A stretch of 64,000 bases of DNA from positions 1,166,718 to 1,230,717 of the forward strand of contig NZ_BMER01000001.1 of the NCBI RefSeq assembly GCF_014636865.1, written 5' to 3'. Source of the stretch: Parapedobacter pyrenivorans. Its GTDB lineage: Bacteria; Bacteroidota; Bacteroidia; Sphingobacteriales; Sphingobacteriaceae. The notes under the pieces were generated by a model. The model saw only the letters and a program-made list of their open reading frames with translations, was not told the DNA's origin and did not search any database. Positions 14,053-36,096 of this stretch are shown piece by piece (the stretch's first letter is position 1; each line of letters starts with the position of its first letter). The position numbers and the translations under genes are program-made.

Positions 14053-14104
14053 ATCAGGATTCAATAAAAAAGATTTGGAAACCATTTTTATAAACCCTAT
14101 TCAA

Positions 14105-17100: not shown

Positions 17101-17470
17101 CCCTTTGATCCGCTTCGATAAAGCACTGAGGCTGGAGGGCCGGTGGAATACGGTCAATGTAAATTATTGGACTCCTCAAAACCAAAGCAACGAGTATCCG
17201 AAACCCAGTGCAAACTGGGAGACGCCTCCGGATATCGGTACGGTCTATTATCAAGATGGGTCGTTTGTACGTTTAAGGTACGTGACATTGGGATATAGTA
17301 TTCCCAACGGCCTAATTGAGCGGATGAAGATGAGCCGCGCTCGCGTGTACTTTACAGCCCAGAATCCATACCTCTGGACTAAGTTTGATGGGTTGGACCC
17401 TGAAGGAGCGAGGGGATTCAATACACCTAGCCCGAAGACCTTTATGGTTGGAATAAATGTGGCTTTATAA
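14105..17470 (+). CDS. SusC/RagA-family TonB-dependent outer-membrane importer with STN signalling domain
   Basis: The start at 14105 (MYKKNTTHG) fits homologues better than 14075. A signal peptide ends near ...NAHTYAQ. An STN/secretin domain (about 45-110) marks a receptor that signals to FecR. A CarboxypepD_reg-like domain follows (IIGNVTDEHGRPLEGVTVSV), then the SusC linker LDEVVVVGYGTQRRRDLTG, the plug (with PLYVIDGIPI and ATAIYGSRGANGVVLITTKRG) and a 22-strand barrel to the C-terminus. It imports a glycan or related nutrient with the SusD lipoprotein encoded 20 bases downstream. No glycoside hydrolase is adjacent, so the substrate may be a small acid sugar. Confidence 0.95.
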   Translation: MYKKNTTHGYCYWRCVFLKYALRMKLSCVLLMVGFLQLNAHTYAQHISISKHNASLVELFNDIKKQSGYHIFYDASMIQATHPISVNIRNRSLEEALTYVLKGLELGYKVVDKNVIITKVEKAKLPGKNTYALQERQIIGNVTDEHGRPLEGVTVSVKGTPIVTTSRATGDYQLTLPENGSTLVFSIVGFEMREVAVPTGNVLNISLKTHVSNLDEVVVVGYGTQRRRDLTGAISSVTSKEITEVASLNAMQAIQGKVAGVNVMQNGWNPGSDATIRIRGRRSFNASNDPLYVIDGIPIVRGLNEINPAEIESMEVLKDASATAIYGSRGANGVVLITTKRGKTGQTSITYDAYVGSQTPLRLLDIMDGAEFAEFVRETYRNRTTNPYDSPSPNLEEDQRLVIFTQDPYILESVTQAYDESGNYNPSKVRSFDWVDATLRNGFIQNHQLGITGGTEKTQLGISGGYYTNKGITKGMDYNRYSIRVNLDHQVSSRIKVGTSSVFSYVRENAGSELYGIARQQNPLATPYNPDGSLLLNPGNDALAVNPLLNIDGVINEHRRNRTLTNLYGEVSIVDGLKFRTNFGIDFRTARDGRFRSSMSTNQNGAPAWAEYGGNYSKGYVWENILTYDREFDNHRFTVTALQSIQNDRMEEYGETVRGLPYEYQWFYNVGSATENLGVRSNLAEWRMMSWMGRVNYSFQGKYMLTLSGRSDGSSVLAPGRKYAFFPSAALAWRLSDEELFKNIDQLDDLKLRIGYGMTGNSAISPYQTQGSLSLTRYSWDENVAIGYAAGGFPNARLGWETTSQVNFGLDFSWLQGKISGVIDVYQQNTRDLLMERQLPVVSGFSSVLENVGKTRNTGLEISLSTVNYESKRSDFSWSTDWLFNANREEIVELYGGKKDDIGNTWFLGHPIGVFYDHQFAGIWQDTEQDRQEMAKYNENGHSYEPGLIRLVDQNGDYRINAEDRIILGNDRAKWIGSLTNRISWKGFDWSFQLYANIGPLIRFDKALRLEGRWNTVNVNYWTPQNQSNEYPKPSANWETPPDIGTVYYQDGSFVRLRYVTLGYSIPNGLIERMKMSRARVYFTAQNPYLWTKFDGLDPEGARGFNTPSPKTFMVGINVAL

Positions 17471-17490
17471 ATCTATAACGAACGCTAAAA

Positions 17491-19275
17491 ATGAAAACGA
17501 AGATACACATCATCTTATTTTGCATGGTATTGAGCTTATCATGCACCAATTACCTCGACGAAAAAATCGTATCGGGGATATCCTATGGTTATTATGAAAC
17601 TCCTGAGGGTGTAGACGCCGGCGTGGCATCCATCTACAGCGTGTTGAGGTGGGCTTATAACGGAGAAAACCTGCATCCCATTCAGGAATTGGGAACCGAT
17701 ACCTATCAAGAAGGGCAGGATGGGAACCTCAAGGGAGCCTTGAACCGATATGAGTCGTCACTAAATTCACAATTCGGGGTACTGTATAATTTCTGGAGTA
17801 ATTATTATACGGGGATTAGCCGGGCAAATATTGTCATCAATGCGATACCGAGCGTAACGGGTATGAGCGACGACATCAAAAATATCCGGATGGGGGAATC
17901 ACGTTTCTTGAGAGGGTTATTCTATTTTTATCTTGTGCAAACGTTTGGCCAGGTGCCTATTGTCAAGGAAGTGGACTTTGAAGTCAAGACGGATTTCAAG
18001 CGTGCTCCGGTAGCCGATGTCTATGACCTCATCATTGAAGACATCCGCTATGCCGTAGACTACTTGCCGCCGAGCCAACCGGACTATGGCCGAGCTACGA
18101 AAGGAGCGGCGCAGCACCTGCTGGCTTCGGTGTACCTTACTCGAGGTAGCGCCATCACCGCCCAGCGTGGGCAGAAAGCGACAGACATGGACAGCGCTGC
18201 CTACTATGCCGATCAAGTGATAGCTAGCGGCACGTATTCCCTTGTTCCCGATTTCAAGCAATTGTGGCATATCGACAATCAAAAAAACAGTGAAGTGATA
18301 TTCGCGGTGCAATTCTCCCAAAATATGCTATACAACAACAATTCTGGCAATAAAATACATCTGTATTACACCATGGTATACGATAATAAGCCGGGTATGA
18401 GCCGCGCGCTGGAATATGGACGCCCATGGCGGAGGGTAAGGCCCACTGATTTTACGCTTTACGAGCTCTTCGACCGTAAAAACGATGCCCGTTTCTATAA
18501 AACGTTTCGAACGGTATGGTATGCAAACAATCCGGATAATATTCCCGTATGGCAGGCCACAGCCGGATATACGCCGCCATCGGATCTGGTGGGGAAACCG
18601 AAGTTTGCGGTAGGCGATACCGCAATATGGGTTACGATGGAGCGTGTCCCCGATCACGTAAACCGCGATTCACTATATGCTTCCAAACCCTATTATTATA
18701 TTCCGCGCAACCGGCAAACCAATGCGGAGTTTCCGCAGAATTTCAAGTTTTACGATGATAAACGACCGGCAGCGAATGACGAGAATGGCTCTCGGGATTG
18801 GTACGTATTTCGGCTGGCCGAGACCTACCTGATTGCAGCAGAGGCATATGGTCGATCTGGCAACTATGCCACCGCTGTTGAACGACTGAATGAAGTGAGG
18901 AAGCGGGCTGCCTACAAAGAAGGAGAAGAAAAGCCCGGCGAATACTGGCGTGTTGAAGGTGGCGATTACGATGAACGGTTTGAAAGTACGGAGCAAGCAC
19001 TGCTCCTCTCGGTGGAAGATATCACGACGGGCCTGGGTGATTATTCCTTTATCGACTTTATGTTGGATGAACGCGCCCGCGAATTGCATGGCGAATGCAT
19101 ACGTCGTTGGGAACTCGTCAGGTGCGAGAAACTGGTTGAGCGGGTATTGGAACATAATCCGGAAGCCCAAAATATACGCGAATTCCACAAACTCATGCCC
19201 ATTCCGCAAAACCACATCGATCGCCTTGATCCGATTGGTCCATTGGAAGAAGAGCAAAACGAAGGGTATTATTAA
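17491..19275 (+). CDS. SusD/RagB-family outer-membrane nutrient-binding lipoprotein
   Basis: 594 residues. A lipoprotein signal peptide ends in LSLSC, with the lipid-bearing cysteine near residue 18. Tetratricopeptide-like helices of the SusD N-terminal domain follow (ESRFLRGLFYFYLVQTFGQVPIV) and the C-terminal RagB/SusD domain contains FRLAETYLIAAEAYGRSGN and the LDERARELHGECIRRWELVR block. It caps the SusC barrel at the cell surface and captures substrate. Stop-to-start spacing to susC is 20 bases, so they are co-transcribed. Confidence 0.95.
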   Translation: MKTKIHIILFCMVLSLSCTNYLDEKIVSGISYGYYETPEGVDAGVASIYSVLRWAYNGENLHPIQELGTDTYQEGQDGNLKGALNRYESSLNSQFGVLYNFWSNYYTGISRANIVINAIPSVTGMSDDIKNIRMGESRFLRGLFYFYLVQTFGQVPIVKEVDFEVKTDFKRAPVADVYDLIIEDIRYAVDYLPPSQPDYGRATKGAAQHLLASVYLTRGSAITAQRGQKATDMDSAAYYADQVIASGTYSLVPDFKQLWHIDNQKNSEVIFAVQFSQNMLYNNNSGNKIHLYYTMVYDNKPGMSRALEYGRPWRRVRPTDFTLYELFDRKNDARFYKTFRTVWYANNPDNIPVWQATAGYTPPSDLVGKPKFAVGDTAIWVTMERVPDHVNRDSLYASKPYYYIPRNRQTNAEFPQNFKFYDDKRPAANDENGSRDWYVFRLAETYLIAAEAYGRSGNYATAVERLNEVRKRAAYKEGEEKPGEYWRVEGGDYDERFESTEQALLLSVEDITTGLGDYSFIDFMLDERARELHGECIRRWELVRCEKLVERVLEHNPEAQNIREFHKLMPIPQNHIDRLDPIGPLEEEQNEGYY

Positions 19276-19372
19276 ACGAAGGATATTATAAAATATAGGT
19301 GTAACCCGCATGGCAAAATCCGTAAGGATTCCGAATGCGGCTATTCAGGCAAGTAATTTAATCAATAGAATA

Positions 19373-20656
19373 ATGGTATCAAGAAGAAATTTTATCAAGA
19401 TGGCCGGCGCAGTACCGGCGATAACACTGGCAGATAAGCATGCACTATTTTCAATCAACCCCTCCCGTTTTAATGGAAGGGGACCAGCCATCCGACGCAT
19501 CGAGTTGATGAATGTAACCGGCAGCTTTTATCGCTTTGTAGGAATGAATGCTTATGACACGGAGCCCAAGGGTATCAATAAAGTACAGCAGATCGCGAGG
19601 ATTACCTTAGCCGATGGTACGGAAGGACTCACGGTAATCGGCTACACCCGTATTACCGACGGGATTCTAGCTAAAATAAAAGAATTGATCGGTAAAGATC
19701 CCTTCGGCTTTTACAACTGGCAGGATGAACGGATTGCAGGGGTGGCAGAAGATTTGCACCCGTATTTTTATGATGCAGACTATTCGTGGATAGAGGGTGC
19801 GATTTTAGACGCGTTGGGCAAGGTACTGCAGGTTCCCGTTTGGAAATTATTTGGAGATGCCGTAAAAGCCGGCATCGATACCTACGATGGGACACTGTAC
19901 TTCGAGGAGATTTCACTCAACGGCGATGTTGATACGATTGCAGACATCGGAAAGCGGGTAAAAAACGATGGGTACACCGCTATAAAAATGAAATTGGGCC
20001 GACCCTCAAAATGGTTGAAAGGAGAAGCAGGCGTAGACCGTGACATCGATGTTTTTATCGCCTTAAGAGAGGCCGTGGGATGGAATTTTAATATCATGAC
20101 CGATGCCAACAATGGGTATAAAGACCAATTTGAATGGGCAGTGAAATTAATGAAAGCCTGCGCTCCTTACGAAATGTATTGGATGGAAGAACTGTTTCCG
20201 GAAGATAAGTCATTGTACCTCAAGTTACGGGAGACGTTGCTGCAAGATGGTTTTTTTATTCCCATCGCTGAGGGTGAAAATATCCGCCGACACGAACAGT
20301 TCACGTCCCTGTTGGCCGATAGTGTTTACAACTTTTTGCAACCCGATATGCGTACCTGCGGCATGAGTTATATTTTGCTGATGGCTCACGAGGCAAAAGG
20401 ACACCCGCACGTCAAGCTCATTCCTCACAATTGGCAGAGCCAAATGGGGCTCATTATGAGCCTGCATGCAGCGAAGATAAGCACCAATATCAATTTTGTT
20501 GAGGACGACCGTTTTCATAATCACGCACTTTCGACTACGAAGTATCAATTTAAGGGCGGGCAATGGTTTATACCGGATGAGCCCGGATGGGGTGTCAAAT
20601 TGGTGCCTGACTATAAGCAGTTTGTCGTCAGCGGAAGTGAAGTTGTTATCGAATAG
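19373..20656 (+). CDS. Enolase-superfamily (mandelate racemase group) enzyme with Tat signal
   Basis: The start at 19373 is chosen because it gives a twin-arginine signal, MVSRRNFIKM; the longer frame from 19310 adds unrelated residues. The catalytic barrel shows the K-x-K motif (AIKMKLG), the three metal acids (DANNGY, EELFPED, IAEGEN) and a late histidine in LIPHNW, matching the mandelate-racemase subgroup that dehydrates or epimerises acid sugars. It follows SusD, so it probably acts in the periplasm on the compound imported by this locus. The exact substrate (an aldonate, uronate or lactone) cannot be read from sequence. Confidence 0.85.
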   Translation: MVSRRNFIKMAGAVPAITLADKHALFSINPSRFNGRGPAIRRIELMNVTGSFYRFVGMNAYDTEPKGINKVQQIARITLADGTEGLTVIGYTRITDGILAKIKELIGKDPFGFYNWQDERIAGVAEDLHPYFYDADYSWIEGAILDALGKVLQVPVWKLFGDAVKAGIDTYDGTLYFEEISLNGDVDTIADIGKRVKNDGYTAIKMKLGRPSKWLKGEAGVDRDIDVFIALREAVGWNFNIMTDANNGYKDQFEWAVKLMKACAPYEMYWMEELFPEDKSLYLKLRETLLQDGFFIPIAEGENIRRHEQFTSLLADSVYNFLQPDMRTCGMSYILLMAHEAKGHPHVKLIPHNWQSQMGLIMSLHAAKISTNINFVEDDRFHNHALSTTKYQFKGGQWFIPDEPGWGVKLVPDYKQFVVSGSEVVIE

Positions 20657-21243: not shown

Positions 21244-21390
21244 TCATTCCGTTTGCCGGAATTTACGGCGCAACCGTAAACGTTCCAACTGGTCATACAG
21301 CTCAAATGCCGTATCAAGATAAGATTTGGTATCCAAGCGCTCCCTGCTTTCCGAGAAAACGCTTTCGGGGTGTTTGGCGTGGAATGCCGA
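21244..21390 (-). pseudogene. Orphaned 3' end of the sulfotransferase gene
   Basis: Reading on from the TGA at 21391-21393 in the same frame gives about 48 further sense codons, rich in charged helix-forming residues (FHAKHPESVFSESRERLD ... QLERLRLRRKFRQTE), then a TGA at 21244-21246. It looks like the normal C-terminal helix of the sulfotransferase, cut off by one nonsense change; a CGA to TGA transition would explain it. Confidence 0.65.
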
Positions 21391-22236
21391 TCACTTAGCC
21401 GCCTCCATGATATGGGTCTCATTGAGTGCCATCCCACAGCTCGAAGCTACGTTATGTAATAAACCGAGTGGCCCTTCTTCATAATTGAGGAGCACGGCCC
21501 TGCTATCTGATGAAGCAATATCCAGATACGTGCTGAAATAGCGTTCCAATACCCGTGCCAAGTAGTCATCCAAATCTGCAGCATGGATTTCCTTGGGATC
21601 AAACCCGAAAACTACCGGCTCAATCAATCCCGGTACCGCATGCATGCCCCGGAGTTTTCGATGGGATCGAACCACTTCATCAGGCCGTCGATAAAGGAGT
21701 ATAAACGGAACCTCAGGGTATAACGCCCGAAGTTGCCGCCAAAAGAACATATGCCAACTATCCAGTTTAATGATGAGGTGCTGTTCATTGCCTATCCGTT
21801 GTTGCCCATAGAGTCGGATGGCAGCGGATAGTGTTTCGGAGACCGAAAAGCCCGACGGGGCGTCGGTTTTAAAGGGCAACCGAATAATATCGTCGAAAAA
21901 CGGCACTTCCGCCAGGCTGATGCACAGCGGATGTAGCCCTAGCAGTTGTGACAGCAGGGTAGATCCGCATCGCGATACATGGAAGATGAAGGCCGTGGGC
22001 GGAATGTGGGGTAATGCAGTACCCCAGGCCGCCAGTAGGTCGACAGCGCTCGCTGGCCGAAAACGACTGGAATTGAAAATTTTGCTCCGGCCTTTGGCCA
22101 ATGTCTCTTCAAAAAACGGATCAGTGAACGGAATGCCCTTCAGCTGCATCCATTCGCACCAAACATCCTGTTTGCTGGTGTGGAGACGAGAGGGATACCA
22201 ATTTCGAATAGGCAGCATGGAAGGCATATTATTCAT
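21391..22236 (-). CDS. Sulfotransferase-family protein, C-terminally truncated by in-frame TGA
   Basis: 281 residues to the first stop. The 5'-phosphosulfate-binding loop of PAPS-dependent sulfotransferases is clear (FHVSRCGSTLLSQLLGLHP, residues about 90-108), as is the 3'-phosphate-binding segment FILLYRRPDEVVRSHRKLRG. The family transfers sulfate from PAPS to hydroxyl or amine groups of proteins, glycans or small molecules. The reading frame continues after the stop for about 48 codons (21244-21390), so the full gene would encode about 330 residues. It overlaps the hydroxylase gene upstream by four bases, so the two are translationally coupled. Activity may be lost or altered. Confidence 0.8.
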   Translation of the reverse strand: MNNMPSMLPIRNWYPSRLHTSKQDVWCEWMQLKGIPFTDPFFEETLAKGRSKIFNSSRFRPASAVDLLAAWGTALPHIPPTAFIFHVSRCGSTLLSQLLGLHPLCISLAEVPFFDDIIRLPFKTDAPSGFSVSETLSAAIRLYGQQRIGNEQHLIIKLDSWHMFFWRQLRALYPEVPFILLYRRPDEVVRSHRKLRGMHAVPGLIEPVVFGFDPKEIHAADLDDYLARVLERYFSTYLDIASSDSRAVLLNYEEGPLGLLHNVASSCGMALNETHIMEAAK

Positions 22237-22901
22237 AGCTCGTTCTCCAATCGGTCGGCGAGTTGCGTAGCGGTTGGTGTATCCTGTAGCCGGAGCGCCG
22301 CAATGACCTGTTTTTGCAGTGCGACATCGACATCCTCAGTCTTGGTTTGCTTGTCGGCACGGTCGAAAAGCCCGCGCAACCAATCATTTACTTGGCAATC
22401 AATCACCAAATGGATACGGTCAGTCGTACCCTTATTGTGTACGTGATGCACCAGGTTGGCATTGATGTACCAGCAGGTGCCAAGGGGCATGTCCACACGG
22501 ATATCCTCCACGTAGAATTCCACCTCCGGATTGGTCACGATTGGAAAGTGGAGACGTGCCTCTCCCTTTTCAAATGCCAGTTCATGATCGCGGTGCGGCT
22601 TGATATCAGCGCCCGCCTTTAAATTCAAGAAACGCACTGATTGTACCGGGCAATCCAAGGAGCGGACCAATTCTCCAACAGACGGAAAGTGATGCATGTG
22701 TGCTGTGTAGGCATACGCTTGTTCGCCCATCAGATCCGGGACGATACTATCCTTTCCTGCTGGCGTGCGCAACGGCAAAACAGTCCATTCTCCCTGGTAA
22801 TGCAACGTATTAAAATGCGACTGCCAAGTAGCGGGATATCGAGCCAGTTCCGCCGCGACGGAGTTGGGTGGTACAAGTGGTATTTTAGCAAAACAGATCA
22901 T
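22233..22901 (-). CDS. Aspartyl/asparaginyl beta-hydroxylase-family dioxygenase
   Basis: 222 residues. A cupin/jelly-roll 2-oxoglutarate/Fe(II) dioxygenase of the Asp_Arg_Hydrox family (PF05118). The first iron ligand is in IKPHRDHE, the core strand is ARLHFPIVTNPEVEFYV, and the distal histidine is in LVHHVHNKG, followed by an arginine in DRIHLVIDC for 2-oxoglutarate. It would hydroxylate aspartate or asparagine side chains in a protein or peptide. It is translationally coupled to the sulfotransferase and divergent from a second dioxygenase gene 470 bases away; both flank the tail-collar genes. Confidence 0.88.
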   Translation of the reverse strand: MICFAKIPLVPPNSVAAELARYPATWQSHFNTLHYQGEWTVLPLRTPAGKDSIVPDLMGEQAYAYTAHMHHFPSVGELVRSLDCPVQSVRFLNLKAGADIKPHRDHELAFEKGEARLHFPIVTNPEVEFYVEDIRVDMPLGTCWYINANLVHHVHNKGTTDRIHLVIDCQVNDWLRGLFDRADKQTKTEDVDVALQKQVIAALRLQDTPTATQLADRLENEL

Positions 22902-23371
22902 AGCTAGATGGGCTAATTGAGGTAGACTTAAAACAAATTAACAAGTTTTTTAGGAGAAATGAAATTGTTTTTTTAATCCGGTATTCTAATGAAAAGGGGC
23001 TTTAGCGGAATTATTTTCAATATTAATTAACCATCGACCGATTCCAAAGGCTTCCCGACAGGTACATTTTTACCAAGCGATGTAATTTAAAAGGTAAAAA
23101 ATCATAATACTAAAATATTTTTTACATACATTAGCAGTGCAAAATATAGGATATTGCCTACAACGCGATCAGTTAGGGCAAATCTTAGCATCTACTACTA
23201 CTTATGACATTCATTTTTTAATCAAGCCCATGAAAAGGCTTTTTAATCACAGTTAATCTGCATGTACGGCATGATATCGGCATAAACCATATCGATCACG
23301 CCAACCGCAAGATAATGGTGTGTGTCGACGGTTCGTGCTAGGCGTTTCGCTTACATCAATACTATGGAACC
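22902..23371. other. AT-rich divergent intergenic region (470 bp)
   Basis: It separates the hydroxylase/sulfotransferase pair (left) from the PKHD oxygenase/tail-collar operon (right). It is clearly more AT-rich than the flanking genes. A TACATTAG -7-like box (23127-23134) points right, about 240 bases before the oxygenase start, but without a clear -33 element. No open frame or RNA gene recognised. The room suggests shared regulation of both arms. Confidence 0.5.
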
Positions 23372-24049
23372 ATGTATACTTCCTCTTCCTATTTGACCAT
23401 ATCAAGCTTTTTAAATGAGGAGCAATTGGAGCAAATTGCTCAGGCCCAAACTACCGCCATTTATGAAGATGGTAAGCATACTGCCAGGGATGGAGCCAGG
23501 GAAGTTAAAAATAACCAGCAGATGAATACCGGTTGTACCGCATATTCAACCATTCAGCAAGTTCTTCTCACGGCAATGAATCATAATGGCGTATTCAGAA
23601 ACGCCGTACTGCCTAAAAACATCTATCCCTTCTTGATCAGTAAATACACCCAGCAGATGGGATATGGTTGGCACGTGGATAGTCCGTTAATGGGCAATAT
23701 GATGCGGACCGATGTCGCGATGACTATATTTCTAAATGATCCGGAAGATTATGAGGGAGGTGAGTTGGAACTGCAATCCTCCACAGGCAATGTGCTTTAT
23801 AAATTGAAAAAGGGGGATGCCGTTTGTTATCCATGTACCCAATTGCATCAGGTCAGGGAAGTAGTCGATGGCGAACGACATGTTGCGGTAACGTGGATAC
23901 AAAGTTTGGTAAAAGTTGCTGAGCAGCGCAAATTATTGTTTGACATCCAACAGGTGATTGACAAACTGTTTATGCAAGATCGACAAAACTTGGAAGCTAA
24001 ATTTCTTCAACAAAGCCATAGTAACCTATTAAGAATGTGGTGTGAATGA
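23372..24049 (+). CDS. PKHD-type 2-oxoglutarate/Fe(II) dioxygenase (PiuC/YbiX-like)
   Basis: 225 residues, the normal length for the PKHD-hydroxylase family. The double-stranded beta-helix shows the HxD iron motif in GYGWHVDSP, the core block EGGELEL, the distal histidine in TQLHQVREV and the 2-oxoglutarate arginine in GERHVAVTWIQS. Relatives hydroxylate prolyl or other residues in proteins. It is the first gene of a plus-strand operon; its stop overlaps the next start by four bases (ATGA). Its presence before fibre-like tail-collar proteins suggests that these are substrates; that is inference. Confidence 0.9.
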   Translation: MYTSSSYLTISSFLNEEQLEQIAQAQTTAIYEDGKHTARDGAREVKNNQQMNTGCTAYSTIQQVLLTAMNHNGVFRNAVLPKNIYPFLISKYTQQMGYGWHVDSPLMGNMMRTDVAMTIFLNDPEDYEGGELELQSSTGNVLYKLKKGDAVCYPCTQLHQVREVVDGERHVAVTWIQSLVKVAEQRKLLFDIQQVIDKLFMQDRQNLEAKFLQQSHSNLLRMWCE

Positions 24050-25200
24050 AAATAGATCAACCTAATATGAATACTAACCATATCGCTATAGGCGTACTTT
24101 TGCCCGCTTCAACGATTTTACCGATGGGTAAGGATTTTGAACGCGGACTAAAGCGAACGCTGGCAGAAAAGTTAACAGCAAGTAACTGTACAGTTGAATT
24201 CATTCCCGAATTTATTGGGCAAGGAAGTAAATCGGCTGTTGAAGAAGCGATCAACAAATTAATCGGTTATCATCAGGTTGATTTGATAACAGGGGTTTTA
24301 TCGAATCAAGTAGGAATGGAGGTAGCTGAAAAATTTGAAAAGCATCGCATCCCGTTTTTGATTAATAATATCGGGGAGCACGTGCCCCATCCCAATCGAT
24401 TCAATCCCTATGTTTTTATAAACTCTACACATACCTGGCAGCAAGTGTGGTCATTGGGACACTGGGCAGTCGGCACATTCGGTAAACGCGGAATGTTTGT
24501 GGCTGGTATTTATGATGCAGGTTACTCCTTCTCCAATATGCTTAAATTAGGCATGGAGGCTGCTGACAGCCAATCCGTTTTGGCCTTTTCGATTGCACAG
24601 CTAGGGCAACCCGGCAAGACGACTGATCCCCGGGATGTATTTAAACACATTGCGACATTTGAACCAGATTTTATCTTCAGCGCATTTTGCGGGGGCGAGG
24701 CGAGTGCTTTTTTGGCGGAATACATCCGCTTGGGGTACCATAAAAATACACCACTTTTAGCATTGCCTTTTCTGTTACAGCCCTTTGATGCACAGCAGCA
24801 AGCATTGGAAATATATACCGCTGTTACATCCACATTGGACATGACGGATGTTGAGCCGGTCGTCCAGAAATTGAATACAGATCGTCCATTTGATGAATTG
24901 GGTTCGGCAACGGGATCAATACTCGCCGAGGCGCTTAGCAAAAAAGACGATAAGGGTTTAAAAGAGGCGATAAATGGAACAATCAGCCATTCGATAAGAG
25001 GCGCATTGCAGATTGATTCGTCGTGGCCGGGCAAAGCCAATTATGTATACCTGGTCAAAAACACGCACCACGGAGAAGAGAACTCCATTGAAATGGCTGT
25101 GCAGGAACCGTTGAAAACGGTAGAAATAACTGATAATGAACTCATGAAAAATATGGAAGGGCCTTCCTCCGGTTGGGGAAACCCTTATTTAGGCGTATAG
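24046..25200 (+). CDS. Periplasmic-binding-protein-fold (Peripla_BP_6-like) protein without signal peptide
   Basis: 384 residues of the type I periplasmic-binding fold, as in branched-chain amino-acid ABC receptors: IAIGVLLPASTILPMGKDFE opens the first lobe, and DLITGVLSNQ, PFLINNIGEH and FEPDFIFSAFCGGEASAFL follow. There is no signal peptide or lipobox, no ABC permease or ATPase nearby, and translation is coupled to the oxygenase gene (4-base overlap). It therefore probably works in the cytoplasm, perhaps as a small-molecule sensor or peptide carrier for the modification enzymes. An in-frame ATG at 24067 is an alternative start. Fold call strong; role unknown. Confidence 0.8.
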   Translation: MKIDQPNMNTNHIAIGVLLPASTILPMGKDFERGLKRTLAEKLTASNCTVEFIPEFIGQGSKSAVEEAINKLIGYHQVDLITGVLSNQVGMEVAEKFEKHRIPFLINNIGEHVPHPNRFNPYVFINSTHTWQQVWSLGHWAVGTFGKRGMFVAGIYDAGYSFSNMLKLGMEAADSQSVLAFSIAQLGQPGKTTDPRDVFKHIATFEPDFIFSAFCGGEASAFLAEYIRLGYHKNTPLLALPFLLQPFDAQQQALEIYTAVTSTLDMTDVEPVVQKLNTDRPFDELGSATGSILAEALSKKDDKGLKEAINGTISHSIRGALQIDSSWPGKANYVYLVKNTHHGEENSIEMAVQEPLKTVEITDNELMKNMEGPSSGWGNPYLGV

Positions 25201-25202
25201 CA

Positions 25203-26144
25203 ATGAACATCGCGGTGCTTTGTAACACGGACTCACTAGTCGCCCCGACCCTCCAGCAATTGCGGGAAAAGGGCTGGCTCGCTGGTGTGGCAATACCGGA
25301 AAAGAGTAAAGACTATTTGGTTGGAGCCTTATTCCAAATAGGCCTAACGGAAAAAGACATTACCTTGATTCCTGCCGATACGCGAAGACAGGCGCTGAAA
25401 GATTGGGTATGTGCGCTTAAACCCACCGTGGTGTTCGTTTTTGGATTTCCATGGAAAATCACTGCGGATGTTCTTGACGCACCAGTAAGAGGCTTTTTCA
25501 ACTTTCATTTTGGCGAGCTGCCGGTCTATCAAGGAGCTGATCCGATATTCTGGCAACTTCGGAACAGGGAGGACCAAGGTGAGCTTACCGTGCATCGGAT
25601 GACATCGATCGTAGACCAAGGGCCTATCGTTTGGCGGGAAAAGTGCCAGATGATTCCGGGAGAGACCTATGGTATGCTTTGTCAACGTATGGGGTACCTG
25701 GCCGCCGATATGCTACTACCGTTTACCGAACAATTGATGTCAGGAAAACTGACTGAAAAGAAACAGCAAACCGTAGTCCCCTCATTTGCAAAGAAACCCG
25801 AGACAATAGACTTATCCATCGATTGGGAGAAACAGTCGGCGGAAGAAATTGAGTGGCTGATCAATGCGGCTAATCCGAAATACGGAGGAGCGTCTACTTT
25901 ATTAAGGGGAAGGGAAATCCGATTGCTGGAAGTAGCTCCGGCAGACATGAATGGTACAGGCAATGAGGGTATGTCCATGCCAGGTACCATTGTATATGCG
26001 GATGCGGTATACGGTTTGATCATAGCTTGTAGTGATAAGAAATTCCTTAAGGTGAATGTGGTGCATCTTCCTGAAGGTTACCTTTCGGGGAGTAAGCTTT
26101 TCACGATGGGTGTAAAACCAGGAGAGCGATTTACAACTAATTAA
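25203..26144 (+). CDS. Formyltransferase-family protein (methionyl-tRNA formyltransferase-like)
   Basis: 313 residues from the ATG at 25203, two bases after the preceding stop. The catalytic triad of 10-formyl-tetrahydrofolate-dependent formyltransferases is present: Asn100 and His102 in FNFHFGELPVYQG and Asp138 in SIVDQG. A C-terminal domain of the formyl_trans_C type (about 210-310) follows. It is not a standard Fmt: loop and spacing differ, and the gene context is not translation-related. It probably formylates an amine on a peptide, sugar or small molecule made by this locus. Confidence 0.82.
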   Translation: MNIAVLCNTDSLVAPTLQQLREKGWLAGVAIPEKSKDYLVGALFQIGLTEKDITLIPADTRRQALKDWVCALKPTVVFVFGFPWKITADVLDAPVRGFFNFHFGELPVYQGADPIFWQLRNREDQGELTVHRMTSIVDQGPIVWREKCQMIPGETYGMLCQRMGYLAADMLLPFTEQLMSGKLTEKKQQTVVPSFAKKPETIDLSIDWEKQSAEEIEWLINAANPKYGGASTLLRGREIRLLEVAPADMNGTGNEGMSMPGTIVYADAVYGLIIACSDKKFLKVNVVHLPEGYLSGSKLFTMGVKPGERFTTN

Positions 26145-26170
26145 ATGTTTACATAAAAACCAATTGAATT

Positions 26171-26770
26171 ATGGAAGGAACAATGGCAGAAATCCGCCTG
26201 TTCTCCGGCGACTTTGCACCAAGAAATTGGGCGTTTTGCAATGGGAGTGTTTTGGCTATATCGAGCAATCAAGCCCTCTTTGCGTTGCTGGGTACAACCT
26301 ATGGCGGAAATGGGGTGACTACGTTTAATTTGCCCGATTTACGGGGGCGAACTGTGATTGGCCAAGGGGCCGGACCCGGCTTAAGCCCACGCAGCCTAGG
26401 CCAAATCGTAGGTACCCCCACGGAGACGCTGACATTAAACCAGCTGCCGGCACACACGCATATGGCACAGGTTACGGCAGGTACCGCAAGCGGTTCGGCT
26501 ACCCTGTATGGGGTGAATGCCGGCGGGGGGAGTGCAACGCCAGGGGGTAATTACTTAGCGGAAGACAATAGCGCGGGAGCCACGGCTTACGCATCGTCCG
26601 GAACACCGGTCGCGATGAATGCAGGCTCCGCAGCGATAACTGACGTGCAGGCTGCAACCACGGTGTCGATTGGAAATGCCGGCGGAAGCCAGCCGCATAC
26701 GAACATGCAGCCGTCGCTTGCTTTGAATTACATTATTTGCACAGCGGGCATATTCCCGTCGAGAAACTGA
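26171..26770 (+). CDS. Phage tail-collar domain protein (MdpB-like), copy 1
   Basis: 199 residues starting MEGTMAEIRLFSGDFAPRNW. The tail-collar domain (PF07484, residues about 5-60) has the typical GTTYGGNGVTTFNLPDLRGR core. It is followed by a conserved histidine block, LPAHTHMAQV, and a Gly/Ala/Ser/Thr-rich fibre-like tail ending in MQPSLALNYIICTAGIFPSRN. No signal peptide. First of three tandem paralogues with the same ends and divergent middles, 26 bases after the formyltransferase gene. Family members are phage-fibre-like proteins of unclear role (microcystin-dependent protein type); no other phage genes are nearby. Confidence 0.88.
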   Translation: MEGTMAEIRLFSGDFAPRNWAFCNGSVLAISSNQALFALLGTTYGGNGVTTFNLPDLRGRTVIGQGAGPGLSPRSLGQIVGTPTETLTLNQLPAHTHMAQVTAGTASGSATLYGVNAGGGSATPGGNYLAEDNSAGATAYASSGTPVAMNAGSAAITDVQAATTVSIGNAGGSQPHTNMQPSLALNYIICTAGIFPSRN

Positions 26771-26796
26771 TTATTAACCCAGAAAGAAACATCACC

Positions 26797-27402
26797 ATGG
26801 AAGGAACTATTGGAGAAATCCGGATTTTTGCCGGGAATTTCGCTCCGCGCAGTTGGGCGTTTTGCCAGGGGCAAACCATATCCATCGCATCCAACAATGC
26901 ACTATTTGCCATCGTGGGTACCGTTTACGGCGGAGACGGTGTTACGACCTTTAATTTACCTGATTTGAGGAGCCGTATTCCCATTGGGACCGGCCAGGGA
27001 CCGGGGTTGCCGAATTATACGTTAGGAAGTCAGGTTGGCGACGAAGGAGTAACATTAACGAGCAATCAAATGCCGGCTCATTCCCACGCGGCTACCGTCC
27101 AGCAAGCGTCGACCCCCGGTTCAGCAAAGGCGACACTCAATGGGATCAACAATGCCGGTGGGCAATCAGCCCCTGGCGGAAATTACCTGGGGCAAGACAA
27201 CAGCGCCGGAGCAACGTCTTATGCTACGGCGGGTACCCCTGTCGCGATGCACGCCAGCTCCCTTGACGCGACTATTAACGCATCCCCCCCGACAGTCAGG
27301 CTATCGCAGAATGGCGGAAACACACCGCATGAAAACGTACAGCCCATCCTCGCGACGAATTACATTATCTGTCTGGAGGGTATATTCCCATCAAGAAACT
27401 GA
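26797..27402 (+). CDS. Phage tail-collar domain protein (MdpB-like), copy 2
   Basis: 201 residues; the ATG at 26797 aligns with its paralogues, whereas the longer frame from 26737 runs back into copy 1. The collar core GTVYGGDGVTTFNLPDLRSR and the histidine block MPAHSHAATV are preserved. The middle is Ala/Gly/Ser/Thr-rich (GGQSAPGGNYLGQDNSAGA) and the C-terminus is LATNYIICLEGIFPSRN. The shared frame with different middle residues suggests a hetero-oligomeric fibre or a set of diversified binding tips. Located 26 bases after copy 1. Confidence 0.88.
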   Translation: MEGTIGEIRIFAGNFAPRSWAFCQGQTISIASNNALFAIVGTVYGGDGVTTFNLPDLRSRIPIGTGQGPGLPNYTLGSQVGDEGVTLTSNQMPAHSHAATVQQASTPGSAKATLNGINNAGGQSAPGGNYLGQDNSAGATSYATAGTPVAMHASSLDATINASPPTVRLSQNGGNTPHENVQPILATNYIICLEGIFPSRN

Positions 27403-27429
27403 TTTAATAATCTTAATAAGTGAAGAATT

Positions 27430-28032
27430 ATGGAAGGAACAATTGGAGAAATCCGCGTTTTCGCGGCTAATTTCGCGCCCAAAAACTGGGCTTCCTGCGA
27501 AGGGCAACTACTGCCGATTTCGCGCAATACGGCACTTTTCTCGATACTGGGTGTCCAGTACGGAGGCGATGGGAAGACCACATTCGCGCTTCCTGATCTT
27601 AGGGGGAGGACCGCGCTGGGCGTTGGGCAGGGCCCCGGCCTGAGCACCTACACCATCGGGGAACGTACCGGTACGGAGAACGTAACGCTGCTTACGCCGG
27701 AGATGCCCATGCATAGTCATGAGGCGACCGCCCAGGTGGGCACCGTCACCGCTACCGGCACGTTGTATGGTGTCAATAGCCCCGGTGGAGAGGCTAACCC
27801 CGGCGGAAATTTCATCGGTGAGGATAATAGCGCAGGCGCTACGCCGTATGCCGCTTCGGGTACGCCCGTTGCCATGAATGCCGGTGCGATAACGGTTACA
27901 GACGTGGTGGTACCGCCGCCTTCGGTGACCGTGGGTCCGGCCGGATCTACGTCGCCACATCCCAATATGCAACCGTCATTGGCGATGTATTACATCATTT
28001 GTATGTATGGGGTGTTTCCCGCTAGAAACTAA
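27430..28032 (+). CDS. Phage tail-collar domain protein (MdpB-like), copy 3
   Basis: 200 residues, start MEGTIGEIRVFAANFAPKNW. Collar core GVQYGGDGKTTFALPDLRGR, histidine block MPMHSHEATA, variable middle with GGEANPGGNFIGEDNSAGA, and conserved end MYYIICMYGVFPARN. DNA identity to copies 1 and 2 is highest at the two ends. It is the last gene of the oxygenase-to-collar operon; the giant secreted adhesin begins 146 bases later. Confidence 0.88.
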   Translation: MEGTIGEIRVFAANFAPKNWASCEGQLLPISRNTALFSILGVQYGGDGKTTFALPDLRGRTALGVGQGPGLSTYTIGERTGTENVTLLTPEMPMHSHEATAQVGTVTATGTLYGVNSPGGEANPGGNFIGEDNSAGATPYAASGTPVAMNAGAITVTDVVVPPPSVTVGPAGSTSPHPNMQPSLAMYYIICMYGVFPARN

Positions 28033-28110
28033 GTCATATACGAATACAGTTAATTGGTCAATGGATCCATGCCGTGGCGCATTTCCCGAAAGATGACCCA
28101 CTCGTTGGGG

Positions 28111-28138
28111 GTGTAGTGGTTTTGTAAAACCATTACAC
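28111..28138. repeat. Long perfect hairpin between collar operon and adhesin
   Basis: A 13-bp inverted repeat, GTGTAGTGGTTTT/AAAACCATTACAC, with one G-T wobble and only two loop bases, lies 79 bases after the last collar stop and 41 before the adhesin start. It lacks a following T run, so a protein-binding site or cruciform is as likely as a terminator. Confidence 0.55.
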
Positions 28139-28178
28139 TTCGACGATATGCCTCCAAATCATCATTATACACGTTGTT

Positions 28179-31100
28179 ATGAATAGACAGCTACAATTCC
28201 TGAAAAAAATAGCCGTTCTTTTTCCGGTTGCTTTACTGCTATGTTTTACCGGTATAAAGGCGCAGACCCTCAATCAGGGTGATTTGGCGGTCATTGGATG
28301 GAATGCGCTTACAGATCAGGTGCATTTGGTCACCTTGGTGGATATCCCAACCGGTACAGTCATCAAAATCACGGATAAGGGCTGGGATCAGAATACCAAT
28401 GCATTTACGGCATCCTTCACCGGCGATGGTATTGTTACTTGGACGCTATCTAATGCGGTGCCAGCCGGGACGGTGTTGGAGCTATTTTTAGGCGGTGCTG
28501 ATGACGGTACGTCATTGACCAACTTGACAACATCAGCCAGTTTAACCAGTGATATAACCGCTTCGACTTATACGATAAACGATGCGATGATTCTTACTGG
28601 CGACCAGATTTTCATTTACCAAGGTGTGGATTCGAATCCGTTTTTCATTTTTGGGATGAATAATTCCGCTGGTCCGGTGGATGCCACGAACTGGAATACC
28701 TCAATAGCTGCTTCTCTGAGGGATTCAAATCTTCCAAATGGTTCGGGCGGTAGCCAAAATGCCCTGACCAATGGTATAAATGCCATCGGCCTACCCGGAG
28801 AGGCTGCTCAACAAGACAATGTCCAATATACCGGTCCAACGGCGACTGCCGACCGGAATACGTGGTTAGCGCGCATCACCAACATTGCCAACTGGACTGG
28901 AAGTGACGAAGATGACGTTACAAATCCGATCACCTCGGCTCCGACGCCAATCGTCAATATTGCGCCACCAAACAATGCGCCTACAGACATCACCCTCAGC
29001 AATGCATCTGTAAATCAGAGCGCGGGTGCTAACGCGGTAGTAGGCACCCTCAGTTCTACCGATGCCGATGAGGATGATACACATACGTATGCTTTAGTCG
29101 AAGGTGTAGGCGATGATCATAATGATCTTTTCAATATCGCGGGGAGTATGCTGCGCGCTAATGATGCATCGGCTATGCAGGTCGGTGGAGCACCATACAC
29201 GGTGCATATCCGTACGACGGACAATGTCGGAGGATCTTACGAAAGAGCTTTTGTAATTGTCGTGGTGGATGACGTGGCACCCACGGTCAGCAGCGTAGCC
29301 GTACCGGCAAACGCAACCTATGTTGCGGGGCAGAACCTCGATTTCACTATAAACGTATCGGAAAATATAACGGTTACCGGTACGCCACAACTGCCATTGA
29401 CCATCGGAACCGCATCTGTCAATGCTACCTACAATGCAGGCGGTTCTACCGCAACGGCCTTGCTATTCCGCTATACCATCCAACCGGGCGACATGGACAC
29501 CGATGGCATAGAATTGGACAATGGCATCACCTTGAATGGCGGCACCATCGCCGATGGCGCAGACAATAACATGAATTTAGCGATTAGCTCCGCGGACGCC
29601 TCGGGCGTACTTGTCGACGGCATAGCACCATCGGTAACCAGTGTAGATGTACCTATGGCTGATACCTACGGTATTGGTGAAACGCTTAATTTTACGGTTA
29701 ATTTTGATGAAATCGTCACCGTGAACACCGGCGGCGGCACCCCTCGTTTCCCACTGACCATTGATGGCACGACCCGATATGCCTCCTACCAGTCGGGGTC
29801 AGGCACCAACACGCTGGTGTTTCAATACACCGTAGAGGAAGACGACCCTGAATCCAGTATCACGGTAGGGAACGTGATCGACCTCAACGGGAGTGCGATC
29901 ACGGATTTACCCGGAAATGCGGCTGTCACTGATTTGAACGGCATAGGCAGTACGACGAACGTGCGGGTAGATGGCATACGTCCCACGGCCACAATCGATA
30001 TCGCCGATACGGAGCTGGTCGCCGGGGAAACCACCACGGTAACCATCACGTTCAGCGAAGCCGTCTCGGGCTTTACCGCCAGCGACCTAGATGCCGCCAA
30101 TGGTAATCTCGGTATGGTCGAATCCGATGACGGCGGTATCACCTGGACAGTCACTTTCACGCCCGCCAGCGGCGTTGCCGACGCGACCAACGTGATAACG
30201 TTGGTCAGTACCGGCGTAACCGACCAAGCAGGCAACGCAGGTACTGGCACGACCGATTCGGAAAATTATTCCATCGATACCCAGCGGCCGGAGATGACAA
30301 TCACCGTTGGTAATGTAAACCTCCACAGCTGCGCCACAGCTGCCGTGACGTTTACGTTTACCAAAGCGGTTTCGGGTTTTGATAATAGTGACCTGACCGT
30401 ACCCTATGGCACCTTAACGGAAGTGAACTCAACCGATGGCGGCATTACTTGGGCGGCTACGTTCACACCCGACCTGAATGTACAGGAGACAGGCTTAGTT
30501 ATCACGTTGGATAACACCGGCGTGACGGATGACTCCGGCAATACCGGCTTGGGCACCACCGTATCCAACACGTTTGATATCAATTCCATGGGACTGGTCC
30601 TAATATCAGGGGGGCAGTCCGCCGTTTCCTGCTTTGGAGGGTCAAACGGCACCGCTACGGTGGTCGCATCGGGTGGTGTGGGTCCTTACACCTATAGTTG
30701 GAGTCCGTCTGGCGGCACGGCGGCCACCGCCACTGGCCTGATTGTTGGTACGTACACCGTCACAGTTACCGACGTCAACAACTGTCAGGCAACGTTAGAC
30801 TTCACCATTACGGAACCGCCGGCATTAGTCATCACTCCTTCTCAAACAAATATCACTTGCTTTGGTGAGGCAGACGGAACGGCTACCGTTCAAGTAACCG
30901 GCGGCGCACCACCCTATAGTTATAGCTGGACCTCCTCCGTCAGCGCGCAAGCCACGGCTACAGGTTTGTCTGCAGGAAGCTACACCGTTACCGTCACGGA
31001 TAACCACGGATGTGAGATCTCCCAAAATTTCATAATTAACGAACCCGATGAAATTGTAACGTCGATCGGCTCGATTACGCCAGTAAGCACGTACGGTGGT

Positions 31101-34100
31101 AACGACGGGTCCGCAACAGTGAGCGCCACTGGTGGTACCGGATCGCTCACCTACAGCTGGAGTACTACCCCGGTACAAACCGGGCCCGCCGCCACCGGGT
31201 TGGTAGCGGGTACTTATACCGTTACGGTTACCGACGAAAACGATTGTTCTAATGTATTGGATGTGACGATTACCGAACCCCAACCGCCTACATTCAGTAA
31301 CCTGGATGGCGATGTCATCTCTTTCACCGAAAGTGGTCCGGCAGTGCTGATCGATGCGGGTGGGGATGCCACGGTCAGCGATCCGGACAGTCCTGATTTC
31401 AATGGGGGCAGCCTGACGGTATCCATCGTGTCGAATGGCGCTGCTGGCGAAGATCGGCTGACGATCCGGGATGAAGGGACGGCCGCTGGCCAAATCGGTG
31501 TATCTGGGGGTGATGTGACCTACGGGGGGACGACGATCGGTACGCTAACCGGAGGCACTGGTGGAATCGATCTCATTGTGACGTTCAATTCGGCGGCAAC
31601 TCCCGCCGTCGCTCAGGCGCTGATCAGAAACCTGACTTACAGTAATTCTAACTCCGTAAATCCCTCGCCGGATCCACGCACGATCCGTATCACCTTGGCG
31701 GACGGCGATGGTGCCACTAGCGCTTTCCAGGAAGTTACGGTGAATATCACCTTGGTAAACGATGCGCCGATTGTCACCACTAGTGGTGGAACAGTTACGT
31801 TTACCGAACCGGAAGACGGTAATCCCGTACCGTTAATCATTGATCCGGGACTGACGGTGACGGATCCGGACAATACGACGCTTGTTTCGGCAACGGTGAG
31901 CATCACAAGCAATTTCGAATCCGGCGAAGATCTGCTTGCTTTCGTAAACGACGGCAGTATGGGCAATATCTCCGGTATTTACGATGCCGGTACAGGTATG
32001 TTTACGCTCACCTCTGCGGGTGCCGCGGCGACCTTGGCGGAATGGCAGACTGCTTTGCGTGCTATTACCTATAGCAATAGCTCACAAAAACCAAATACGG
32101 CCATCCGAACGATTAGCTTTGTAGCGAATGACGGTACGGCCAACAGCAGTCCGGCGACAAAGGATGTCAATATCGTGGCGGTAAACACGGCTCCGGTAGC
32201 GGTGAACGATGAAATAATGGTCACGGAGGACGTGCCCGCCACCGGCAATGCATTGACCAACGATTCGGATGCGGAAGGAAATGCATTGACGGCGTCCCTG
32301 GTCACCGCACCCGTTAACGGTACGGTAGTCCTCAACGCGGACGGTAGCCTGACCTATACGCCCAATAGCAACTACAATGGCCGGGACAGCCTGACCTACC
32401 AGGTTTGCGACAACGGCACACCATCGCTGTGTGATACGGCATTGGTATATTTCAACGTGGGTGCAATTAATAGTGCCCCCTCCATTACGGCCCCGGCGAC
32501 CATCGCAGCGGATGAAGACGTGCAAACCCCACTTACGGGTATTAGCTTCGCTGACGTGGACGCGGGCAGTGCCGATGTCACGGCGACATTTTCGGTAGCT
32601 GATGGTACGCTTTCTGCCGTGTCGGGCAGTGGTGTGACGGTCAGCGGGTCGGAAACAGGAACATTGGCATTGGTTGGAGCGATTGCTGACCTCAATACAT
32701 TTATCGCGGCGAACAACCTTGCCTTCACAACTGCGCTCAATGCCACCACCGATGTAACACTCACCATCGATATCGACGACGGAGGTAATACGGGCATCGA
32801 CCCCGGAAATTCAGGCACGGATGATTCGGAGGCAGCTACAACAACGGTGACGATAACCGTGACCGCCCAAAACGATGCGCCGGTAAACACTGTTCCCGCA
32901 GGCCAAACCATCGATCAGGATGAGCCGTTGGTGTTCAGCGCAGCCAGTGGTAATACCGTTTCTGTTGCCGACGTGGATGCTGGAGGCGGCACCATACAGG
33001 TTACGCTAACGGCGTCGAACGGATTACTGACATTGGGGGGGACTACCGGACTGACATTCATCAGTGGCAGCGGAACCGATGATGCCACCGTGACCTTCGT
33101 AGGAACGATTATCGATATCAATGCAGCACTGGAGGGATTGACGATGATGCCTACAATTGGTTACAGTGGTGCAGCCAGTCTCCAGATCGTCACCAACGAT
33201 CTTGGACTCACCGGCGCTGGTGGCGACCAAATGGATACCGACGTAGTCGACATTACCGTCAACGAAATCAATCCGGAAGTCACCAGTGTGAATACGACGA
33301 GTCCGGACGGCGTATATAAAATGACTGATATCATCAACTTGACGGTGACGTTCGATCAAGTGGTGACCGTGGATGAGACTGGCGGTTTGCCCACTTTGCT
33401 GCTAGAAACCGGTAGCGCCGATCGGGAGGCGGGTTATAAATCCGGCTCAGGGTCCAATACACTGGAATTTACCTATACGGTGCAGGCAGGCGACGAGACA
33501 ACGGACCTGGATTACCAATCGACCGCAGCGTTAACGCTTAATGGTGCAACCATACAGAGTGCTGCCGGCAATGATGCGGTGTTGACATTGCCTGCTGTTG
33601 GCGGGGCCAGTTCAATTGCGGGGCAGCACGCCATTATCGTCGACGGGGTGGCACCTGTCGTGACTGTTGTAGACATGCTAGCCGATGGCACCTATCGCAG
33701 CGGCGATGTACTCTCCTTTACCGTACACTACAGTGAAGACATACCCGTGGTTGGCGGCATGCTGACTTTGCCGGTAACGATTGGTACCACTACAGTGCAA
33801 GCGCCCCTTACCGATACCACCCGTAATAGGCTTATCTTTAGCTATACCGTGCAGAATGGTGAACTGGATACGGACGGTATTGAAATAGGGCCCGGCATTT
33901 TACTGAATGGAGGGGCACTGCTGGACGGCGCTGGCAACGACGCTTCCCTCGCTTTGGTTGGTGCTGGCAATACCAGCGGTGTACTGGTAGATGCCGTAGC
34001 CCCGGTGGTTACTTCGGTATCGGTGCCGGCCGATGGCTATTACCGCGAAGCGGATGTGTTGCTATTTACGGTGCATATGAGTGAGGATGTGGCGGTGAAT

Positions 34101-36071: not shown

Positions 36072-36096
36072 GATAGCAGACAATAGATAAGAGACT

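Follow-up and report, generated by a model that had tools for sequence, protein, structure and literature searches.

Comparison across several phyla suggests that nonphage tail-collar loci encode enzymes that alter both ends of their fiber proteins

Introduction

Cellular genes annotated as "tail fiber" or "microcystin-dependent" proteins, i.e., proteins with a tail-collar domain, are usually taken for phage leftovers. A stretch of 64,000 nucleotides from Parapedobacter pyrenivorans (referred to here as the window) carries three such collar genes in tandem, together with genes for two 2-oxoglutarate dioxygenases (the Asp/Asn-type enzyme ASPH and a PKHD-type enzyme), a sulfotransferase (SULF), a formyltransferase (FMT), and a signal-less protein with a periplasmic-binding fold (PBP). 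What do these enzymes act on? A first-pass annotation of the window had proposed a dedicated system that hydroxylates, sulfates, and formylates fiber-like proteins. Our comparison across several phyla suggests that enzymes of this kind chemically alter both ends of the fiber proteins. We put at roughly 55% the probability that the genes form a cellular, nonphage fiber locus whose own cytoplasmic enzymes act on both collar ends.

Results

Collar C termini and ASPH

Enzyme type tracks the terminal residues of collars, and this is a firm comparative result. The discovery set comprised 147 collars from 89 loci, in which alignment columns were tested against the enzymes with one vote per locus; collars without a recognizable start were left out. 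The best column for ASPH was the last residue, which was Asn in 13/13 loci with ASPH and 28/76 without (p = 1.3e-5). The collars of these 13 loci ended in Asn (26 of 28) or Asp (2). Because the signal was no stronger than the scattered columns found for PBP, it was treated as a hypothesis.

At the test stage, ASPH was searched in new genomes, the loci were obtained, and the collar ends were read. The ASPH-negative group was screened in two ways (single protein, E ≤ 1e-8; profile, E ≤ 1e-12), genomes with weak or fragmentary ASPH were kept separate, and collars cut at the C terminus or with partial model coverage were set apart. All 21 collars from nine new loci with ASPH and collars ended in Asn (19) or Asp (2). 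At least one Asn-ending collar was present in 35/35 genomes with a clear ASPH versus 24/63 without ASPH (p = 4.9e-11), and at least half of the collars ended in Asn in 32/35 versus 11/63. The first of these counts was 34/35 until the linked collar of one genome (G418, locus L262) was added, and the background rose from 17/50 to 24/63 with the addition of thirteen ASPH-negative genomes. These thirteen, of which G514 and G619 have doubtful collar tails, contributed 7 genomes to the at-least-one count and 1 to the at-least-half count. When only genomes that were not ASPH-positive in discovery were counted, the result was 23/23 versus 24/63 (p = 3.9e-8); some collars of those 23 genomes had been in the discovery alignment, then as ASPH-negative loci.

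A column scan and a within-family shuffle were done before the thirteen genomes were added. Asn with ASPH was the best of 4475 column-residue tests (p = 7.8e-11; best unrelated column, 1.4e-6), with a background of 18/50 because the alignment column was scored rather than the last letter. None of 20000 shuffles of the ASPH labels within families equaled the observed value. Family by family, Asn with and without ASPH was found in 9/9 versus 2/13 (the window family), 10/10 versus 1/3 (f51), and 2/2 versus 1/5 (f66). Independent pairs, counted on the unsupported best tree (FastTree; terminal residues removed; G418 excluded), were concordant in 11.2 to 12.9 cases, discordant in 0 to 0.5, and without difference in 3.6 to 5.8. 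The Asn link also held where ASPH is unlinked to the collars (15/15). Column scans for SULF, PhyH, and PBP gave no further specific site.

Collar N termini, GNAT, and FMT

At the other end of the collars, the second residue follows the presence of a gene for a GNAT acetyltransferase. A small second residue (A, S, T, G, P, or V in the majority of the collars of a locus) was present in 21/21 GNAT loci (45/48 collars) versus 11/68 others. Loci with FMT had it in 5/25 cases, and loci with neither enzyme in 6/43 (31 acidic, 6 mixed). As an alignment column, which places the S of MSEP against the M of MEGT, the association was 21/21 versus 12/68 (p = 2.7e-12; next unrelated column, 5.7e-8). Two genomes that hold both kinds of locus (G345 and G313) showed the same split, i.e., mostly small second residues in GNAT-linked collars and acidic ones in the others. 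Independent pairs were concordant in 5.8 to 11.3 cases, discordant in none, and without difference in 1.2 to 1.7. Among the last 20 collar loci, the one clear GNAT locus (L280; 171 bits) had small residues in 3/3 collars. The same group included L276, with acidic collars and a weak GNAT match (35 bits, at a distance of >6 kb, compared with 109 to 248 bits within 2.3 kb of collars for the GNATs called earlier by profile), and L279 and L287, with small residues and no GNAT.

A small second residue permits Met removal, and RimI is an acetyltransferase of N-terminal alanine. RimI was the top NCBIfam match of all four GNATs scanned, but at 25 to 41 bits versus a cutoff of 86.4, and the window encodes FMT instead; the collar-linked GNAT may function like RimI without being RimI. 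For FMT, the best columns were residues 4 and 3 of MEGT (T, 11/25 versus 0/64; p = 1.2e-7).

Neighborhoods of collar genes

Signal-less collars co-occur with giant genes and enzyme modules outside phages in several phyla. The gene-neighborhood survey suggested in the first-pass annotation covered 107 collar loci, i.e., 31 from related genomes, 56 from a phylum sample, and 20 from plasmid records, and it bore out a repeated co-occurrence of enzymes and collars. Giant open reading frames (ORFs) were defined as those of ≥700 amino acids (aa) within 6 kb of collars. The loci from relatives held FMT in 14 cases, GNAT in 1, PBP in 17, ASPH in 10, SULF in 9, and a giant ORF in 24; the corresponding numbers for the phylum sample were 10, 7, 14, 2, 0, and 41. 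The plasmid loci had GNAT in 11 cases by profile plus 3 by annotation, FMT in 1, PBP in 3, ASPH in 1, and a giant ORF in 19 (the GNAT loci L051, L059, and L062 were labeled from the record annotation, the gene being absent from the automatic ORF picks). PKHD was rare (4/31, 0/56, and 0/20), and FMT and GNAT were never found in one locus (0/107). A single obligate five-enzyme kit was therefore rejected, given that the modules vary among loci, that GNAT replaces FMT in other lineages, and that PKHD is rare. The proposal of enzymes dedicated to collars is thus upheld by co-occurrence and by residue tracking, but not as a fixed set, since the modules are exchangeable.

The hosts of the plasmid loci belong to Pseudomonadota, Deinococcota, Bacillota, and Bacteroidota. 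Among 15 annotated plasmid loci (excluding Azospirillum TSH100), the large neighbor was named Ig-like, VCBS, DUF4347, YDG, choice-of-anchor, or cellulose-binding, and 3 were hypothetical. One locus on a Pseudoalteromonas plasmid (L050) combines ASPH, a methyltransferase, GNAT, three collars, a subtilase-like protein, and a giant gene. PorP recurs next to the giant gene in relatives. The giant ORF is weak evidence alone, because 23/58 viral loci also meet its definition.

Collars were present in 37 of 150 related genomes, ASPH in 11, SULF in 9, and PBP homologs in 13 (own genome included). The PBP gene was adjacent to a collar gene or separated from it by one gene in 13/13 loci (12 other loci plus Mucilaginibacter L017). 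SULF adjoined ASPH in 9/9 relatives holding SULF, and ASPH lay ≤6 kb from collars in 9/11 genomes, the exceptions being G011 (different contigs) and G121 (fragmented). In a screen of 395 genomes of the class (ASPH at E ≤ 1e-12, 28 genomes; collars at E ≤ 1e-15, 78 genomes), collars were present in 25/28 genomes with ASPH versus 53/367 without (p = 1.5e-16). The ASPH genomes without collars were G190, G441, and G572; at ASPH scores of ≥224 bits, collars were present in 18/18. Unlinked ASPH genes often lie beside genes for adenosine 5'-phosphosulfate (APS) kinase and SULF, or beside a gene for a small HEAGH-motif protein.

Sulfotransferase and sulfate donor supply

SULF was present in 22 of 166 nonviral loci, some of which had been selected for ASPH, and ASPH accompanied it in 21 of these 22. 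The two are naturally fused in L214 (575 aa), beside three collars, PBP, and FMT. APS kinase makes the sulfate donor 3'-phosphoadenosine 5'-phosphosulfate (PAPS), and it was present in 8/8 SULF genomes checked. In five ASPH genomes lacking SULF in the locus, the match for APS kinase was strong in one case, weak in one, and absent in three. The sole APS kinase copy sits in the collar locus in four genomes (G032, G035, G040, and G062), and the window genome has one, outside the locus.

The small HEAGH protein matches nothing in Pfam or NCBIfam; it was found with ASPH in 19/20 loci and is fused to it in L019 (8319-9512). The LHEAGH-motif protein has 160 to 175 aa (examples, L017:1832-2341, L019, L172, L202, and L212). 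On a Diaphorobacter plasmid, a 630-aa sulfotransferase carries an N-terminal ASPH-type domain (L064:8809-10701); no collar was recognized nearby.

PBP, fiber assembly, and cell location

The PBP homologs have in common an SGWxNPYL tail (alignment A1), which was seen by eye with and without ASPH. Judged by eye, the PBPs of L051, L059, L206, and L172 have twin-arginine-like N termini, and the other Bacteroidota PBPs shown do not; Deinococcus PBPs are among those with such signals. A Pfam-less repeat protein replaces PBP between the collars and GNAT on plasmids of Ruegeria and Tritonibacter (L057:9592-10809 and L211).

Some proteins with collar domains have signal-like N termini (L047, L167, L272, L273, and L274, by eye), and the domain can therefore work outside the cytoplasm. 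Three collar domains are joined in a single 547-aa protein in L185 (9175-10818), which suggests that the collar trio assembles together. In L047, L167, and L274, the C-terminal motif of a collar leads directly into a collar N terminus; thus, the two ends are probably close. An AlphaFold2 model from a 14-row collar alignment was not used (mean predicted local distance difference test score, 59.4; predicted template modeling score, 0.37).

Phage origin

Could the locus be a prophage, a tailocin, or a phage remnant? The collar domain does match phage tail families, and one Burkholderia plasmid locus (L204) is phage-like, with a tape-measure protein and a Mor activator close to the collar gene. 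However, a PHROGs scan of ten window proteins gave structural-family matches for the collar only; those of PKHD and FMT were to auxiliary families, and the single, weak match of a flanking membrane protein was of unknown function. Pfam and PHROGs scans and the ORF lists gave no further phage structural, lysis, or integration genes in the unit, consistent with what the first-pass annotation had stated. Collar matches were found in 105 of 50,697 phage records, all at <60% identity and at approximately 34% in the best rows listed. None of 58 viral-contig loci with short collars had ASPH, FMT, or PBP within 10 kb; a SULF match was present in 1, GNAT in 2, and carbamoyltransferase in 2, and no PBP or ASPH relatives were confirmed in viral contigs. 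On the basis of the window scans, the distant phage matches, and the viral collar loci lacking ASPH, FMT, and PBP, we rejected the prophage reading as highly improbable.

Organization of the unit in the window

All genes named in the first-pass annotation are present as open reading frames, and Pfam and NCBIfam scans found each of them (Table 1). The unit, at 21391-36990, is longer than first described (21244-28032): the gene content given for that interval was right, but the giant adhesin and the PorP gene were omitted, and 21244-21390 contains no gene of the unit. These two genes are counted as members.

Table 1. Genes of the collar unit, with positions in the window
Feature	Position	Strand	Remarks
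Sulfotransferase (SULF)	21391-22236	-	281 aa; PF13469, 32 bits (27 needed); motif FHVSRCGSTL
Asp/Asn-type 2-oxoglutarate dioxygenase (ASPH)	22233-22901	-	222 aa; PF05118, 65.4 bits (22.6 needed)
PKHD-type 2-oxoglutarate dioxygenase	23372-24049	+	225 aa; PF13640; NF003974, 245 bits; rare accessory module
Signal-less PBP-fold protein (Peripla_BP_6)	24046-25200	+	384 aa; PF13458, 68 bits; C-terminal SGWxNPYL tail
Formyltransferase (FMT)	25203-26144	+	313 aa; PF00551 and PF02911; FNFH and DQGPI motifs; predicted N-terminal capping enzyme
Collar protein 1	26171-26770	+	199 aa; MEGT...SRN; PF07484, 97 bits
Collar protein 2	26797-27402	+	201 aa; MEGT...SRN; PF07484, 94 bits
Collar protein 3	27430-28032	+	200 aa; MEGT...ARN; PF07484, 90 bits
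Giant Ig/SprB-repeat protein with type IX type B sorting domain	28179-36071	+	2630 aa; Big_12, SprB, CHU_C
PorP/SprF type IX membrane protein	36097-36990	+	297 aa; PF11751, 121.6 bits

The genes form two divergent units 470 bp apart, SULF-ASPH on the minus strand and the remaining genes on the plus strand, in the order of Table 1. The overlapping starts and stops described earlier were found for SULF/ASPH and PKHD/PBP (4 nucleotides [nt] each), but not for the collars, which are spaced by 26 to 27 nt. The ATG of FMT lies 2 nt past the end of PBP; a start at an upstream TTG (25173) would make the two genes overlap. The three collars, all above the PF07484 cutoff of 24 bits, are the sole collar matches of the genome at E ≤ 0.001. 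The G+C content of the unit (0.485) is similar to that of its flanks (0.474 and 0.487).

The iron site of ASPH is complete, with HxD...H and Arg invariant in alignment A3 (H103, D105, H152, and R162). We take these residues, and the FMT and SULF motifs of Table 1, to be active-site motifs. FMT has both Pfam domains and scores below the cutoff of the Met-tRNA formyltransferase equivalog fmt (109.5 versus 201.5 bits). The CHU_C domain of the adhesin matches PF13585 (71 bits) and falls slightly below the cutoff of TIGR04131 (32.3 versus 35 bits).

Upstream of the unit, a SusC/SusD pair and an enolase-superfamily protein with a twin-arginine-like N terminus (14075-20656) resemble an ordinary uptake operon. 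Other genes recur beside collars elsewhere: a histidine kinase (c12; L031, L035, L039, L042, L174, L178, L180, and L198), accompanied in several loci by LuxR-type regulators; an S-adenosylmethionine-dependent methyltransferase (c16; L019, L050, L173, L176, L186, L202, and L203); and a metallophosphoesterase with a twin-arginine-like N terminus (c18; L028, L038, and L040).

Discussion

Proposed chemistry

Action of the enzymes on the collar ends is, in our view, the best reading of these data, short of demonstration. Under this proposal, the collar paralogs would form one (hetero)trimeric fiber, the N termini of which would be capped by an acyltransferase, i.e., a RimI-like GNAT on collars whose small second residue makes Met removable, or, as here, FMT acting on Met-retaining MEGT collars. 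ASPH would hydroxylate the C-terminal Asn (rarely Asp) of ...GIFPSRN, and SULF would sulfate the new hydroxyl using PAPS; carbamoyltransferase, PhyH, PKHD, and methyltransferase would provide alternative or further steps. The fiber would then act extracellularly with the giant type IX adhesin, and the PBP-fold protein could be a chaperone or carrier. Trimer formation, sulfation, and the export route are the least certain steps. Collar hydroxylation, sulfation, formylation, and surface display, as put forward in the first-pass annotation, are what we also infer from the sequences.

More tentatively, a phage-derived fiber may have been domesticated in at least four phyla, its surface subunits being sealed in the cytoplasm at both ends (an N-terminal acetyl or formyl group; C-terminal Asn β-hydroxylation followed by O-sulfation or O-carbamoylation) by enzymes that would include ones dedicated to the C-terminal Asn of a protein. 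The modified ends, adjacent in permuted or fused collars, would be the working tip. We regard this fuller version as possible but doubtful.

Several observations weigh against action on the collar ends. The collars are signal-less, which makes their export a difficulty. Asn is not sufficient to indicate ASPH, as the Asn-ending collars of 24 ASPH-negative genomes attest, and the residue may be ancestral, with ASPH doing no more than constrain it. Viral-contig collars end in Asn in 14/74 cases; thus, Asn alone marks nothing. Genomes with weak ASPH had Asn in only 4/7 with readable collars, and the collars of the second, GNAT-type locus of G345 and G313 end differently. ASPH is distant from the collars or on another contig in 15 of the 35 clear-ASPH genomes, and its nearest solved relatives (4p7w, 1e5r, and 7v4f) are hydroxylases of free proline. 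At the N terminus, a second-residue rule for FMT had to be dropped, as FMT loci and loci with neither enzyme were alike (p = 0.74). The collar trees are poorly supported, and the supported branches leave 2 GNAT pairs.

Alternative explanations

That proline hydroxylases are the nearest solved relatives would suit a small-molecule or RiPP-like (ribosomally synthesized and posttranslationally modified peptide) pathway, in which ASPH and SULF tailor a free amino acid or peptide bound by PBP and the collars are incidental. Genes for PqqD, transglutaminase-like B2, asparagine-synthase, or NTP_transf_5 (lasso-peptide type) do occur near collars in L017, L032, L063, L196, L206, and L285. Nevertheless, such genes are found in few collar loci (PqqD in 2/31, 1/56, and 2/20), and seed profiles gave no PqqD-like RiPP recognition element, B2 protease, or cyclase in region 11001-52000 of the window. 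Moreover, no precursor peptide was identified, and such a pathway does not predict a link to collar termini; we consider it quite unlikely. The same link argues against modification of the giant adhesin or of a surface polysaccharide, in which FMT would have an amino sugar as substrate and SULF a glycan. FMT resembles Met-tRNA and sugar (ArnA-type) formyltransferases alike, and the giant protein is the exported partner. On the other hand, some loci with ASPH and collars showed no giant gene (e.g., L172), and neither glycosyltransferase nor sugar-nucleotide genes are recurrent in the locus maps, a weak argument in that the maps label profiled families only. Such targets seem unlikely to us.

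The correlations might also arise because collar clades and enzyme genes have descended together, rather than from an enzyme-substrate relationship. The collar tree is weakly supported, and unrelated columns also reach p values of approximately 1e-5 to 1e-8. Against this stand the within-family shuffles, the contrast inside the window family, the excess of concordant over discordant independent ASPH pairs (on an unsupported best tree), and the persistence of the Asn link where ASPH is unlinked; furthermore, the top-ranking columns are those that the chemistry would lead one to expect. Shared descent alone is, in our judgment, an improbable explanation.

Relation to known systems

The nearest known kind of system is a surface-fiber locus with its own modifying enzymes. 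Flagellin and pilin modification islands likewise combine a surface-fiber gene with its own strain-variable modifying enzymes, but the enzymes of the collar locus are predicted to act on chain ends, and no glycosylation genes were recognized. The T4 short tail fiber gp12 has the same collar domain (PF07484), and a profile search found the gp12 structures 1ocy, 1pdi, and 5iv5 and the long tail fiber 8kec. Unlike gp12, the window collars are small and signal-less, have a ...GIFPSRN tail, and lie beside modifying enzymes and a giant secreted protein. SprB-type type IX type B adhesins with PorP/SprF have CHU_C, SprB repeats, and an adjacent PorP in common with the unit, whereas here genes for collars and modifying enzymes are linked directly to that of the giant adhesin. 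ASPH belongs to the same family as proline cis-4- and 3-hydroxylases and Asp/Asn β-hydroxylases (PF05118), but its predicted substrate, a protein C-terminal Asn, differs. As far as we know, neither hydroxylation nor sulfation of the C-terminal Asn of a protein has been described. The system is judged new in kind because we know of no described system of such makeup or chemistry.

Searches of the open-access literature, which leaves out most subscription journals, found no description of the system. The annotation MdpB/COG4675 "microcystin-dependent protein" is given to such cellular collars (the first-pass annotation; PMC5579227), and PMC5579227 reports COG4675 in a soil metaproteome with Pedobacter among the sources; no gene system or chemistry for MdpB/COG4675 was found described in the open-access literature searched. 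In PMC11633204, three "phage tail collar" genes (AM1_3688, AM1_3689, and AM1_3690), a putative acetyltransferase gene (AM1_3686), and AM1_3687 all have negative log ratios in the same tables, a pattern in keeping with co-regulation of collars and acetyltransferase as one unit. Collar paralogs are reported in PMC3174227 to show signs of positive selection.

If the proposal is true, cellular collars are parts of a surface system that is widespread and has a chemistry of its own, and a substrate would be at hand for orphan hydroxylases, sulfotransferases, formyltransferases, and GNATs. The prediction names the exact residues that would be modified.

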